From positions 995,436-1,059,435 of the forward strand of contig NC_008701.1 of NCBI RefSeq assembly GCF_000015205.1: 64,000 nucleotides of DNA, in the 5' to 3' direction. This stretch comes from Pyrobaculum islandicum DSM 4184 (GTDB taxonomy: Archaea > Thermoproteota > Thermoprotei > Thermoproteales > Thermoproteaceae). Below, in pieces: positions 5,601 to 38,044 of this stretch. The notes beneath the pieces are model-generated. The model worked only from the letters and a program-made list of their open reading frames with translations. It made no database searches and was not told the DNA's origin. The translations under genes were made by a program, and so were the position numbers. How positions within the stretch are numbered: position 1 is the first letter of the stretch; every line of letters begins with the position of its first letter.

Positions 5601-6215
5601 CAGCGTAATTCCCTTGTTAAGTGCAAGTAGAAACCTGACATATAACGAGGCGGCGCCTTGTCGTGTTGAAAAGTTTCTCAATATGTCTGCCCACGATTGC
5701 GTATTTTGCAAATACCACGCCACTACAGCGCTGTATTTATACCAGTCGTAAATTCTATCTTCGCCAAGGCTAAATGGGTTTACCCTATAGAGCCTATCGC
5801 TAAAGTATTTATCTGGGAAATAATAAACGCCGGTGGCAACAGACGCCATAGCCTCCGGCGTAGCCTCGTCTACCCAAAAATAATCATTGCTCAAGTCGTA
5901 ACTTGCAAAAAATACATGCCCCACCTCATGATATACAAGTCTCATCGTATAAGACGGTTTAAAAACCACCTTGATAATACAGCCACCTCCAAATTCGGTA
6001 TAGCCATCGTAAGGAGACGACGGGTCAATATAAACCACATACTTGCTTCCCCCACAGGGAGGCGCTGGGCTAAGACCCCTGTCTCTGTAATAACTATAGG
6101 CATTCTCTAAGTACTTAGCCAACACGGGGTCGTCTGGGGTAACAATGAAGTGTTCAGTCTCTAGTGCATATAGCACAGCTGCTGTTAAGACAAGAAGCAG
6201 TAGAAACAAACGCAC
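2667..6215 (-). CDS. Large membrane-anchored HExxH metallopeptidase-like surface protein
   Basis: About 1182 residues. An N-terminal hydrophobic signal/anchor (VRLFLLLLVLTAAVLYAL) precedes a domain with HEVGH at about 96-100 and WVDEA with a Glu at about 117. This HExxH plus downstream Glu pattern is that of gluzincin-type zinc peptidases, so peptidase activity is inferred. The remaining roughly 1000 residues are tandem beta-rich, Asn/Ser/Thr-rich segments resembling archaeal Ig/CARDB-like modules, with many N-glycosylation sequons. A C-terminal hydrophobic stretch (LLGIVGGVFLAMLRRVL) is a likely membrane anchor. The start is GTG 6215, 23 nt from a TATA box shared with the divergent gene. The gene is more AT-rich than its neighbours. 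Confidence 0.75.
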   Translation of the reverse strand: MRLFLLLLVLTAAVLYALETEHFIVTPDDPVLAKYLENAYSYYRDRGLSPAPPCGGSKYVVYIDPSSPYDGYTEFGGGCIIKVVFKPSYTMRLVYHEVGHVFFASYDLSNDYFWVDEATPEAMASVATGVYYFPDKYFSDRLYRVNPFSLGEDRIYDWYKYSAVVAWYLQNTQSWADILRNFSTRQGAASLYVRFLLALNKGITLGQKTYVPDRERVEVAPGSMRIYPDLPGFTAAYYEVVVPQSGVLKITAFGDGVDNMISNIALNRDILVTNGTLLLAVVNNSSETLRPTLVFYLSSLQAKVVDGLYADGKISVRLYATYNLERVNGVVKVNGTPVEFLDGIATYNFTGPLKPYVLKLEYNDSRAYIYLNLSQPLLSVMPNILYLDEGGHGVLNVTLKNPNPIAVRCSFDSTGLRLVPIDIFLPSGNTTTFKLGFWVTDIPQGRVKIRCGPASTEVSVFKPTYSLDFNLDTWSGVLSVRVGSTILNYSTKLPANISISYDSYIVTILRIPMPKLVVNVSSPRLVGNSIGYTLRLKVEGPPWAKFRGTVRLNNEERGSYSGGVFSLDIQLQPGVTRDIGVAIGKLETRVTINVPNVETEIIPKYAVVRNDNVILLAEIKHNIEGNADVEFHGMCKRLNLLEQDAVVLNCKYNDTLVVSYTSFHRERYREVYLPKPRVSITFLHGVVSPEKFNGLFNITVEVCNPSVDSRYEIDLDSKRVVLHVKNGTCASNYAIVEFESSYSPMLVFNLTTFFGSFSQRLFIPPPAVEYRLRRWVIQGNKETALVDLLVEAAKNYTYVVMGREISGRDSLSIEVEATGGVAVVKYGFGTIHIPRPPLQIITKPILLEVNTSATLDVEVKVPTSPELYINASLTTNFGLIKQVSLHPGISKFKLEVPKVSKPGVYNLSIAIGPYVNYTEVTVYQISNISIIALPKVPVGYPVRLDVKGYTNPPGVVRVSLTLNGCIRNMSLVRLNSSLVLKIDRPCAINATVSSNTTKAVVKIEWASLTAELRYYKLGVLRNIPIFPIHNFSVTVLLGDTPVDGHVRVVGDFDKLGFVNYTIYVEYMGMVNRTSFVGFAVPINSYIAANKTVALLSPKARPYFIYLIEKAVTTGDWSLVDGISKLYSDIPTPFTIVARFLVEKALEDGREPNIYVIESLRKIEPVLLGIVGGVFLAMLRRVL

Positions 6216-6262: not shown

Positions 6263-8179
6263 ATGAAGAAAGAAATACTTCTACTCACCCTGGGGCTAAT
6301 CCTAGTAGCCGTATACTTCACGCCTCAACTCTACACGCCACCCGAAACAACTCACGAAACTACACGCTCTACAACTCTGATTACTCCAACGTCAACAACT
6401 ACTCCGACATCTCCAGCTCCCAAACCTATTGAAACTACCACTACGACTACGGAAAAACCGCAGATGACTAAGCCCAACGCTGTATATCTGCCGGACATAA
6501 GAGTAGAGGTATTGGTGCCGCAAACAATAAACACGACCACACTACCACTTCGGATAAATTACACTATAGTAATAAGAAATGTAGGGAATGGCACGGGGAC
6601 TGTAATCATATGGGATAAACCGTATAAAATAGCGCCTGGAGAGACGCTGAGGATAAACTCATCGCTATTAGCCAGATGGGCCGGAGACTATACCGTAGAG
6701 ACTGTGATAAACGGCAGTAAGCATATGAAAGTTATTAAAGTATACTATTACAGAGAAAGGCTAGAGGCCACGCCGCTTTATATCAATGTAACAAAGTTAC
6801 CCGCCGTGGTAACAACAGGCGTGAGAATTAAAAATGTCGGCAATCTCACGGCGTGGGTAGAGGGGGTTGAGATAAAGCCGGGGGAAGAAAAGGTAATAAA
6901 CAAAACGCTTAAAATCGACGCGGCGGGAGCCTACGTTGTAAATGTTGGCGGAGTGGCCGTGCCCGTAATGGTTAGTTACTACGCGGCAAACGTTCTATGG
7001 AAAATCGGAGGTCAAGGAGACGTAGAGGCAGTGCCAGGTGAGACCTATACAGCGTGGCTCTGGATAAAAAACGTGGGAAACGCCACAGCGAATTTAGACA
7101 TAGATGGCAGAGCCGTGACGCTAAAGCCACAAGAGGAGGCGAACATATCAAAAGCTGTTACTATATCGGCAGCAGGTTTATACACGGTGAAGTTTAGAAT
7201 AAGTGGAGACTTAAATACGACGCTATATTACGGAATAAGAGCCAGGGTTATAGCCCCCAGAGTTGAGATTGTTATATGGAGCCCAGAGCTGAGGAGAAGC
7301 TGGCCACTTCCAAATTCGACAGATGAGACATCTGTATCAAGCATTGGAAAGACTCTGGCTTTGACCTGGGGCTACGTAATTACCACAAACGCCACAAAGA
7401 GAACGGTCAACCTAGCTGTGGAAGATCCAGAGGGAGTTAAGTATTATAGCTTGTCGCCAGGTGAGACAATAGCAAAAAACTTTACAACTACTGTACAAGC
7501 TCCTGGCGAAACCACGCTAGAGGTTAAGGTAAATTCTACAAAATATAGCTTAAAAACAGCTGTTCAATTAATCCCTCCAAAAATAACGGTAAAAGACATC
7601 TTAAAAATAGAGTTTGAAGACGGTAGAAAACTCTTAGGCTTGAAAATAAGCTGTAGAGCAGGTAGTGTAGCCACTGACGTTGTACTAGATATGTTAAGAG
7701 TTTCAGGCGTGCTTACTTATACACAGACGGGCAGGGCTATATATGGGGATTTAACAGTAAATTCAGCACGTGGCATCTCTACGGGGGACTATAGAGGAAA
7801 AATCGAGGGAATAAGCGGCCAACTCACGCTAAATATAGCTGGGCATAATATATACCTGGAATTCACTACAGCTCCGTTATCATTAACCAGAGTTTTATTT
7901 GACGGTGCTCAATACAGTTGTAACGTACCCACGGAGCTCGTGCCGCCTATTCTGTACAAAGACAAACCAACCGCCGCCGACGAGTTTGCTACAGAGTATG
8001 TCTACCGACTACTTTCATCATTTGCAAGAACCGACAGTGATAGACCCCAGTCAATAGTTTGGAACGGAGATTACGTAGAGGTAATAGACAAGGGAGGAAA
8101 CCTCTTGAGAGTATACATAAGGAGAGGCGAAATACAGATAGAAGGAGCTCTCACAGCGACTATCGTAATATCACAATAG
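6263..8179 (+). CDS. N-terminally anchored, Thr-rich surface protein with CARDB-like repeats
   Basis: About 638 residues. The N-terminus is a single hydrophobic anchor (KKEILLLTLGLILVAVYF), followed by a Thr/Pro-rich, probably O-glycosylated stalk (about residues 25-75). Then come several copies of a beta-sandwich module whose signature is an IRNVGNGT-like turn followed by a PGE motif. This is the CARDB/alpha-galactosidase NEW3-like pattern used in archaeal extracellular proteins. The C-terminal roughly 200 residues form a different, unrecognised domain containing two Cys. The ATG at 6263 is chosen because the TATA box sits 25 nt upstream; the in-frame GTG at 6251 is too close. Function unknown; the block context suggests a cell-envelope role. 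Confidence 0.7.
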   Translation: MKKEILLLTLGLILVAVYFTPQLYTPPETTHETTRSTTLITPTSTTTPTSPAPKPIETTTTTTEKPQMTKPNAVYLPDIRVEVLVPQTINTTTLPLRINYTIVIRNVGNGTGTVIIWDKPYKIAPGETLRINSSLLARWAGDYTVETVINGSKHMKVIKVYYYRERLEATPLYINVTKLPAVVTTGVRIKNVGNLTAWVEGVEIKPGEEKVINKTLKIDAAGAYVVNVGGVAVPVMVSYYAANVLWKIGGQGDVEAVPGETYTAWLWIKNVGNATANLDIDGRAVTLKPQEEANISKAVTISAAGLYTVKFRISGDLNTTLYYGIRARVIAPRVEIVIWSPELRRSWPLPNSTDETSVSSIGKTLALTWGYVITTNATKRTVNLAVEDPEGVKYYSLSPGETIAKNFTTTVQAPGETTLEVKVNSTKYSLKTAVQLIPPKITVKDILKIEFEDGRKLLGLKISCRAGSVATDVVLDMLRVSGVLTYTQTGRAIYGDLTVNSARGISTGDYRGKIEGISGQLTLNIAGHNIYLEFTTAPLSLTRVLFDGAQYSCNVPTELVPPILYKDKPTAADEFATEYVYRLLSSFARTDSDRPQSIVWNGDYVEVIDKGGNLLRVYIRRGEIQIEGALTATIVISQ

Positions 8180-34042: not shown

Positions 34043-34081
34043 ACATAGGTCTATATCTCTCTCTTTTATGTTATACACGGC

Positions 34082-34137
34082 GTGCCCGGGGCGGGCCCCC
34101 GAGTCCCCCGGGGAGGGGCCAAGAGAGGTAGGGGGAC
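34082..34137 (-). repeat. GC-rich intergenic element, copy A
   Basis: On the minus strand, GTCCCCCTACCTCTCTTGGC leads into CCCTCCCCGGGGGACTCGGG and then GGCCCGCCCCGGG. It aligns end to end with 37000-37058 on the plus strand, with about a dozen differences or indels. Both copies can fold: GGCCCC pairs with GGGGCC around TCCCC/GGGGA. Confidence 0.7.
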
Positions 34138-36478: not shown

Positions 36479-36490
36479 CCTTATATATCT
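36479..36490. promoter_or_regulatory. Shared TATA box between nth (-) and 36507 (+)
   Basis: CCTTATATATCT is centred about 23 nt from the nth ATG (36462) and 22 nt from the GTG at 36507; start codons are 45 nt apart. Confidence 0.55.
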
Positions 36491-36506
36491 CTACTGCTGT
36501 GTAAGT

Positions 36507-36998
36507 GTGGAGGAGCTAAGATTTAGCCTCCGTAAGTCAGACTTTGAGAAATTTGCCGAGAGACTTGGGGTCAATCCAGAGGAGCTACTTACGGCGTTGA
36601 AGGCGGAGGTGGTAAAAATAGGCCCCGGCTTTCGCTACGTTATCGATATGGAGAATTTCTTCTATTTTGTAGTCTCTAAGCTATATGCACAAAGAAAGAC
36701 TGAAAAAACTAGCAATGTAACATTAGAGAGTTTTGAAAATGCCATTAACAAAGCTATAGATAGATTTGCAGGAATAAGCGGATATGCAAAACTTTTTGAT
36801 GTAAAAAACGCAGTTATGCAAGAATTGGGAATAGGCGAGGAAGAATTTGTAAAAAAGCTGACAGAGTTGCTTCAAGTGAAGAAGGGCCACTACGTCTTAT
36901 TAGAGGGCGGCGACTTAAAAATACAGATAGGGGGAAAGAAATACGGCTTTATAAAGAGGGTCGAGAAGAGGTCTGTTGCAGAGGTGGTATACTATTAA
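36507..36998 (+). CDS. Conserved hypothetical protein
   Basis: 163 residues from GTG 36507 (VEELRFSLRKSDF). Mostly helical with two regions resembling winged-helix folds (FEKFAERLGVNPEELLTALK and LFDVKNAVMQELGIGEEEFV), the second followed by a beta-hairpin (HYVLLEGGDLKIQIGGKKYG). A tandem wHTH role in DNA or RNA binding is possible. The first in-frame codon upstream (ATG 36465) overlaps the promoter, so the later start is preferred. Confidence 0.6.
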   Translation: MEELRFSLRKSDFEKFAERLGVNPEELLTALKAEVVKIGPGFRYVIDMENFFYFVVSKLYAQRKTEKTSNVTLESFENAINKAIDRFAGISGYAKLFDVKNAVMQELGIGEEEFVKKLTELLQVKKGHYVLLEGGDLKIQIGGKKYGFIKRVEKRSVAEVVYY

Positions 36999-36999
36999 T

Positions 37000-37058
37000 G
37001 TCCCCTATCTCTTTCCCGGCCCCTCCCCAGGGGACTTGGGGGCCCGCCTCGGGTACAC
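37000..37058 (+). repeat. GC-rich intergenic element, copy B
   Basis: Begins directly after the stop of the 36507 gene. GTCCCCTATCTCTTTCCCGG then CCCCTCCCCAGGGGACTTGG and GGGCCCGCCTCGGGTACAC aligns with copy A at 34082-34137 (opposite strand). Further GC-rich sequence without a match to copy A (GGGGCGAGGGGGCGGGTC...) continues to about 37100. Confidence 0.7.
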
Positions 37059-37139
37059 CGGGGCGAGGGGGCGGGTCACACGGGGGCCGGCCGCGAGTCG
37101 CTTGTTTTGTAACAGTTTGGCGCACCTGTCTGCCGCCCA

Positions 37140-37210
37140 AGTTAACTGGCTCGAGAACCGTAATTGTATTAGACGAGCTTCTCCCCTCTGCGGAGGATCC
37201 AAAATTTTTC
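37140..37210 (+). repeat. 71-nt exact upstream duplicate of an internal ATPase segment
   Basis: Positions 37140-37210 are identical to 37650-37720. The segment encodes the Walker B region (TVIVLDELLPSAEDPKFF), is in the same reading frame as the downstream gene, and stays open into it. A tandem 12-nt repeat (TTTTCAGTGATA twice) follows at the 3' edge. Confidence 0.9.
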
Positions 37211-37267
37211 AGTGATATTTTCAGTGATATACCGATACTAGATTTATTATTGGCAAGCTTAATTCAC

Positions 37268-38044
37268 GTGAATTGTGACATACCCAAGTGGCCTGTGGCC
37301 AAGGACGGCCTTAGACTAGGCGGCAGATCTTGGATTAAGGCTGCAGAGGCCTTAGTTAAGTTAACTTCTACATTTCCAATGGCTATACTCTTGGGTAGAG
37401 CTGGCATGGGCAAGTCCCAAGTGGCCTACGAGGTGTGTAGAAGGACAAACTGTATATATGTCGATTTGACAGAAGTCGGCGAGAGAAATATAGCTAACGT
37501 AGCGGCTATTGTGGCATGGAGGATATTGGCTAGATTTGGGACTAGAGACTCAAAAAACAGGGTGGCGGAGGTCTATAAGAAGTTTGGGTACGAGGGCATT
37601 CTTTCGTTAGCTAAAGGCGACCCGGCGTGGACGTTAAAAACTGCGCTTGAGTTAACTGGCTCGAGAACCGTAATTGTATTAGACGAGCTTCTCCCCTCTG
37701 CGGAGGATCCAAAATTTTTCGAAGTTGCGTATATACTCCACAGGATTAGAAATATGCACCTCTCTAATGCGGCTTTTCTAGTCACCATGTTGCCAGAGGT
37801 CTATGAGAAAATTGTAGAAAGAATACCCCCGCTGGGCAACTTCTTTATACATATCACTGTGCAGTTGCCAGATGTAATACCTGAAGACGAAGTTGAAGAA
37901 ATAGTGTCTGTATATTGCCCAGAGAAGGCGGATCTCGCCAGGAAAATCCTAGCTGAGAGACCAGACGTCACAGTTAGAGAGCTGTTGCTCGAGCTAAACA
38001 ATATACCATCTAGGAGATATGTAGAGCTTATCCCCGCAGATTAA
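37268..38044 (+). CDS. AAA-type ATPase (ORC/STAND-like)
   Basis: 258 residues from GTG 37268. Walker A LLGRAGMGKSQVAYE (about 41-55) and Walker B TVIVLDELLP (about 131-140) are followed by a helical region. It resembles the ATPase core of archaeal STAND or AAA_16 proteins; it lacks a clear C-terminal winged helix. A TTTATTATT box about 24 nt upstream supports GTG 37268. The reading frame is open back to about 36998 through the duplicated Walker B copy, so a longer product cannot be excluded but is unlikely. Confidence 0.7.
   Translation: MNCDIPKWPVAKDGLRLGGRSWIKAAEALVKLTSTFPMAILLGRAGMGKSQVAYEVCRRTNCIYVDLTEVGERNIANVAAIVAWRILARFGTRDSKNRVAEVYKKFGYEGILSLAKGDPAWTLKTALELTGSRTVIVLDELLPSAEDPKFFEVAYILHRIRNMHLSNAAFLVTMLPEVYEKIVERIPPLGNFFIHITVQLPDVIPEDEVEEIVSVYCPEKADLARKILAERPDVTVRELLLELNNIPSRRYVELIPAD
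37650..37720 (+). repeat. Internal (parent) copy of the 71-nt duplication
   Basis: This lies within the ATPase gene and encodes its own Walker B motif. It is presumably the source of the upstream copy at 37140-37210, because here the sequence is embedded in a continuous protein fold. Confidence 0.9.

Follow-up and report, generated by a model that had tools for sequence, protein, structure and literature searches.

The 71-nt patch in front of a P-loop ATPase gene of Pyrobaculum islandicum is, by our reading, probably a repair or template-switch scar formed in this lineage on a truncated TnpB insertion, with DNA taken from the downstream gene. The patch was studied in a 64,000-nt stretch of P. 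islandicum DNA, analyzed as a whole and called the window here. The scar is genuine, rare and recent, and it is specific to P. islandicum. Both its donor and the empty site are clear, and it is ordinary in kind.

In the repeat search of the window, positions 37140–37210 and 37650–37720, both on the plus strand, were identical over 71 nt with zero mismatches. This confirmed the perfect identity reported in the initial annotation. The two copies start 510 bp (170 codons) apart. In self-BLAST the pair reached an E value of 5e-30 and was the top-ranking repeat in the 64 kb window, and the runner-up local pairs were 32 nt at 94%. The initial annotation had also proposed a search for other internal gene fragments copied nearby. 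This search was run on 454 kb, which is 25% of the P. islandicum genome (single contig, 1,826,402 bases), and it returned essentially no further local gene-fragment copy comparable to the 71-nt pair. The only other equally strong local pair was an inverted piece of a rearranged tnpB, with a CRISPR array (L082) and a duplicated protein domain (L086) left out of the tally. Thus, the 71-nt pair greatly exceeds what chance would give and is a rarity in this genome, and the scar is a one-off, since nothing comparable occurs in the 454 kb. When the own genome was searched with the 71 nt, the ATPase gene was the sole other match, and the idea that the 71 nt is a piece or the left end of the element was rejected on that basis. 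An exact-match scan of a genome contig collection, from which records of the own genome were possibly excluded, gave no match.

The two sequences set aside from the tally were observed in their own right. The array at L082:18866–19774 is CRISPR-like, with the repeat CCAGAAATCAAAAGATAGTAGAAA at a spacing of about 68 nt. L086:5532–7703 encodes a 723-aa protein with two tandem binding-protein-like domains, which share an identical 55-nt stretch and are otherwise about 73–83% alike. This identity is possibly a local gene-conversion tract. As an exact local repeat comparable to the 71-nt pair it was rejected, being part of a duplicated protein domain.

The donor stretch lies within the ATPase gene (37268–38044, plus strand, GTG start, 258 aa). 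Intact orthologues, each including the Walker B stretch, were found in 11/11 Pyrobaculum genomes, with 66–88% amino acid identity in the ten others. Walker A is at about 37388–37414 and Walker B is within 37650–37720. The copied piece encodes LTGSRTVIVLDELLPSAEDPKFF, in agreement with the earlier assignment to the Walker B region. In the profile search, the match to AAA_16 was weak and below the cut-off. The conserved GTG start at 37268 and the TATA-like TTTATTAT at 37243–37250 are both downstream of the insert, and the copy indeed has the GC-rich repeat on one side and the TATA box on the other, as first described. The ancestral upstream region (37223–37267, plus strand) is intact and aligns to relatives directly after the TACTATTA of the upstream gene. 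The ATPase promoter, start and gene are untouched by the insert. The preceding gene (36489–36998, plus strand) ends in SVAEVVYY with a TAA at 36996–36998, was found by tblastn beside the ATPase gene in eight relatives, and matched no Pfam or NCBIfam family above the cut-off. The initial annotation was right that the copy is in frame with the ATPase gene, and the ORF is open over 36998–38044. The frame follows from the spacing of 170 codons, and the long ORF is incidental because relatives carry stop codons immediately 5' of the ATPase start.

The comparison of the locus in other Pyrobaculum genomes, suggested in the initial annotation, was performed. Eight relatives keep the gene order cinA-like, DMT transporter, nth, upstream ORF, ATPase and carboxypeptidase. 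None of these eight carries the element or the 71-nt copy, and the 71-nt sequence was found only inside their ATPase gene. In seven of them only about 50 bp separate the upstream ORF from the ATPase start, so that the insert was gained at a site that was empty ancestrally; the eighth (L139, genome G005) has a different insertion in the same intergenic gap. The window flanks joined at 36997|37223 align with the relatives as GTATACTATTA(A)GTGATATACC versus GTGTACTATTAGTGAGATACAG. The joined form can also be read TACTATTA|(A)GTGATATACC, and no host base is missing, to within one or two bases. The inserted sequence copies nearby DNA with the donor retained in an intact ATPase gene.

The homologous 71 nt of the relatives share 66–76% nucleotide identity with the donor, with 17–24 differences per relative, 11–16 of them at third codon positions. 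Because the donor differs by 24–34% from the relatives, chiefly at third positions, the copying took place within the P. islandicum lineage. These alignments indicate that the ATPase gene is the donor and that copying went from the gene into the intergenic space. Since the donor sequence has diverged in every relative and the two copies are identical, the copying event is recent in Pyrobaculum terms. The initial annotation offered a recent event or continued gene conversion; the recent event is borne out by the identical copies and diverged donors, and ongoing conversion found no support.

The insertion in L139 (about 7622–7995, about 310 bp) is independent and lies in the gap before the ATPase gene. 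It is bracketed by a duplicated TATA-containing sequence (CTCCCTTATTTAAACACA / CCCCCTTATTTAAACACA), is unrelated to the window element, and its sole full-length match in the G005 genome is itself. The intergenic gap before the ATPase gene may tolerate or attract insertions.

The GC-rich stretch beside the copy (37000–37139, minus strand) has 44 matches in the own genome, and it matches more than 30 other sites at about 76–92% identity. The family comprises about 30–40 copies in P. islandicum, several with an intact tnpB. Nearly all copies begin at the same base as the window copy, which marks a fixed outer right end, and nearly all siblings extend past CTGCCGCCCC into AGGGGCC, where the window copy stops. 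Longer siblings run into tnpB on the opposite strand, with the tnpB C-terminus at about +180, so the repeat is located 3' of tnpB and ends at the fixed right end. In the L021 sibling, a 423-aa ORF matched Pfam PF07282 (E 2e-9) above the cut-off and NCBIfam guided_TnpB (NF040570, E 3e-15) below its curated cut-off. A TnpB with a Cas12f1-like TNB/zinc-finger domain therefore stands beside the repeat in siblings and not in the window copy. Because the longer copies run into a gene encoding TnpB, the GC-rich stretch is identified from sequence as the right end of a TnpB-type mobile element. By its position, it is the probable omega-RNA region.

The window copy is cut about 140 nt from the right end, and tnpB and the left end are missing. 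Strong stems are predicted, with folding energies of −59.5 kcal/mol for the window copy versus −68.5 kcal/mol for a sibling. The window copy is not expected to be functional, since its first predicted stem has decayed (GACGGGGGC to GACAGGTGC). A non-coding RNA of a known family was rejected as its identity, because the Rfam search matched no family to the element and its sole match was a tRNA elsewhere. The family is nearly confined to P. islandicum within the genus, with five matches in the relative G004. Comparison of the element copies gave no definable left end or target motif. A second, shorter right-end fragment of the same element (34078–34137, about 60 nt, minus strand) lies between the DMT-transporter and CinA-like genes; it is missing in relatives, which have only about 10–20 bp at this site. 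Right-end-anchored truncation was apparent as a family habit but was rejected, since the query was taken from the right end and is biased, and since many tnpB copies lacking this right end simply have another module in its place. In an empty-site comparison of the other truncated copies, the flanks were not syntenic or the insertion was also present in one relative.

Several features of the wider tnpB set were also observed. Many tnpB copies without this right end carry another right-end module from about position 140–160. The tnpB copies of L102–L121 mostly leave the family at this position, as if different right-end (omega-RNA) modules were placed on similar tnpB genes. At least two tnpB copies (L077 and L084:6292/6293) have seemingly the same internal deletion, with element positions of about 603–608 joined to about 1055, which suggests a spreading deletion derivative. 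In L084, a tnpB piece is present as a 73-nt inverted repeat (5924–5996 and 6293–6365, 69/73 identical), which starts at an internal deletion junction and is possibly another template-switch rearrangement.

At the junctions, the 71-nt copy begins exactly at the base where the window element stops, and its other end directly adjoins the host bases that follow the ancestral insertion point. The copy is thus tied physically to the element, because it starts at the truncation base. On the left, the typical element (CCCCAGGGG) and the donor (TTGAGTTAAC) overlap by the 2 nt AG. On the right, TTTTC is repeated and the sequence formerly there has been replaced. The first host sequence at the copy/host junction is AGTGATA, and the 12-mer TTTTCAGTGATA is tandemly duplicated across this junction (37206–37229), where relatives have a single AGTGA-ATAC. 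Two extra bases, AT, lie beside the element at 36998–36999. The insert totals 225 bp (2 + 140 + 71 + 12). Private changes were counted in 3 of 141 columns of the element versus 0 in the 71 nt of the copy. At the element's rate, 0 changes in 71 nt are expected with p of about 0.24, so private changes leave the relative timing of element and copy undecided. The element insertion may be older than the copy, because its nearest sibling is only about 88% identical.

These features would be explained by the following sequence of steps. A TnpB-type element would have occupied, or been inserting into, the gap that separates the upstream gene from the ATPase gene, with its right end facing the upstream gene. 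During break repair or the sealing of an incomplete insertion, a broken end within the right-end part at CTGCCGCCCA would have used the ATPase gene, at a distance of 440 bp, as its template and copied 71 nt. The extension may then have been released at AATTTTTC and connected to the flanking host sequence AGTGATATACC, with slippage at the join giving the 12-bp tandem duplication. The tnpB gene and the left end would have been lost. Microhomology joining by primase-type PriSL is candidate machinery, and the PriS family is encoded in the P. islandicum genome. We infer the break, the extended strand and the enzymes from the product. A templated insertion in one event is the most economical account. 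Counting against a repair scar, none of the roughly 29 remaining truncated copies of the element carries a templated patch, and the left junction offers no more than 2 nt of microhomology. An origin from reverse-transcribed mRNA was rejected on grounds of orientation, since the copy is sense on the strand that would be extended from the element and the ATPase mRNA would be no direct template.

It is speculative that the break came from the nuclease of TnpB itself. A fuller version, in which an RNA-guided TnpB cut at its own insertion site was followed by interrupted one-sided repair and left a right-end-only element with a host patch, is unlikely. If true, the scar would record, in a hyperthermophilic archaeon, how template switching naturally repairs breaks induced by TnpB. 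In TnpB elements, the guide side is the flank adjoining the right end. The 71 nt was rejected as an omega-RNA guide because the guide side is left of 37000 and the copy is on the other side.

The main rival leaves the same final sequence in two steps and is possible, though doubtful. A tandem duplication of about 510 bp, with a unit running from the host flank AGTGATA to 37720, would have been followed by a deletion sparing the last 71 nt of the first unit. This deletion would start at element position ~142, end at 37650 of the first unit, and remove tnpB and the left end. The 510 spacing of the copies would equal the unit length, the right junction would come out precisely as seen (TTTTTC followed by AGTGATATACC), and internal and end deletions are common in the element family. 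However, two events are required, the duplication breakpoint must coincide by chance with the element/host boundary, and no other such local partial-gene duplication occurs in the 454 kb. Misassembly is much less probable still, given that the genome is a single contig and the sequences flanking the two copies differ on either side. The junction also coincides with the element truncation and the ancestral host boundary, for which an artefact has no reason.

We give very little credence to a systematic activity by which the element captures or generates a copy of neighboring DNA on insertion. The copy abuts the element exactly, but none of about 29 other truncated copies had a piece of a neighboring gene copied at its broken end, which largely refutes it and argues that the association is not an element habit. 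The initial suggestion that the copy is the trace of an insertion by the element therefore holds for its place at the truncation and fails as a general activity. A functional arrangement is comparably remote. By geometry, a minus-strand RNA over 37210–37000 would include a 71-nt complement of the ATPase mRNA and regulate it as antisense, or the 71-bp direct repeats would serve as a recombination switch. Against this, the element copy is decayed in its first stem and the arrangement is conserved in no relative. The reversible recombination raised in the initial annotation was unsupported, with the gene intact in all 11 Pyrobaculum genomes. A crossover between the copies would delete 510 bp with the promoter, start and Walker A, and would mean loss rather than a switch.

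With donor, empty site and element all known, this clean natural example provides a concrete footprint to seek in the genomes of other archaea. It has little practical reach, as a single scar whose consequence for P. islandicum is probably neutral.

Templated insertions or filler DNA are known at repaired double-strand breaks, from theta-mediated end joining and from synthesis-dependent repair with template switching (PMC8654963, PMC5217109). The P. islandicum scar resembles them in its short exact nearby copy at the join, its intact donor within about 500 bp, the near-absent homology at the join and the small adjacent tandem duplication. In contrast, filler DNA is known mainly from eukaryotes, and here the host is an archaeon and the initiating break is inferred. 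Microhomology-mediated joining is known experimentally in Saccharolobus islandicus (PMC12019639, PMC8708640), where ends sharing microhomology are joined by PriSL, the replicative primase, which extends the strands (PMC12019639). A 2021 review named Haloferax volcanii and Sulfolobus islandicus as the only archaea in which alternative end joining had been seen (PMC8708640). PriSL joining is likewise archaeal, anneals ends sharing few bases and extends them across discontinuous templates (PMC12019639), and PriS is present here. However, its reported products are mostly 1–2 bp indels, not 71-nt copies, and the system is that of Saccharolobus, not Pyrobaculum (PMC12019639). Compared with TnpB-type elements (IS200/IS605, IS607, tnpB-only), the siblings agree in carrying tnpB with a GC-rich structured right end after its 3' end, whereas the window copy is without tnpB and left end, with omega-RNA status assigned by position. 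Abortive gap repair of P elements and similar transposons leaves internally deleted copies with filler at the junction. Although a single end remains here and the filler is host gene sequence, the scar is like these products in that the interior was lost and the filler was copied from nearby.
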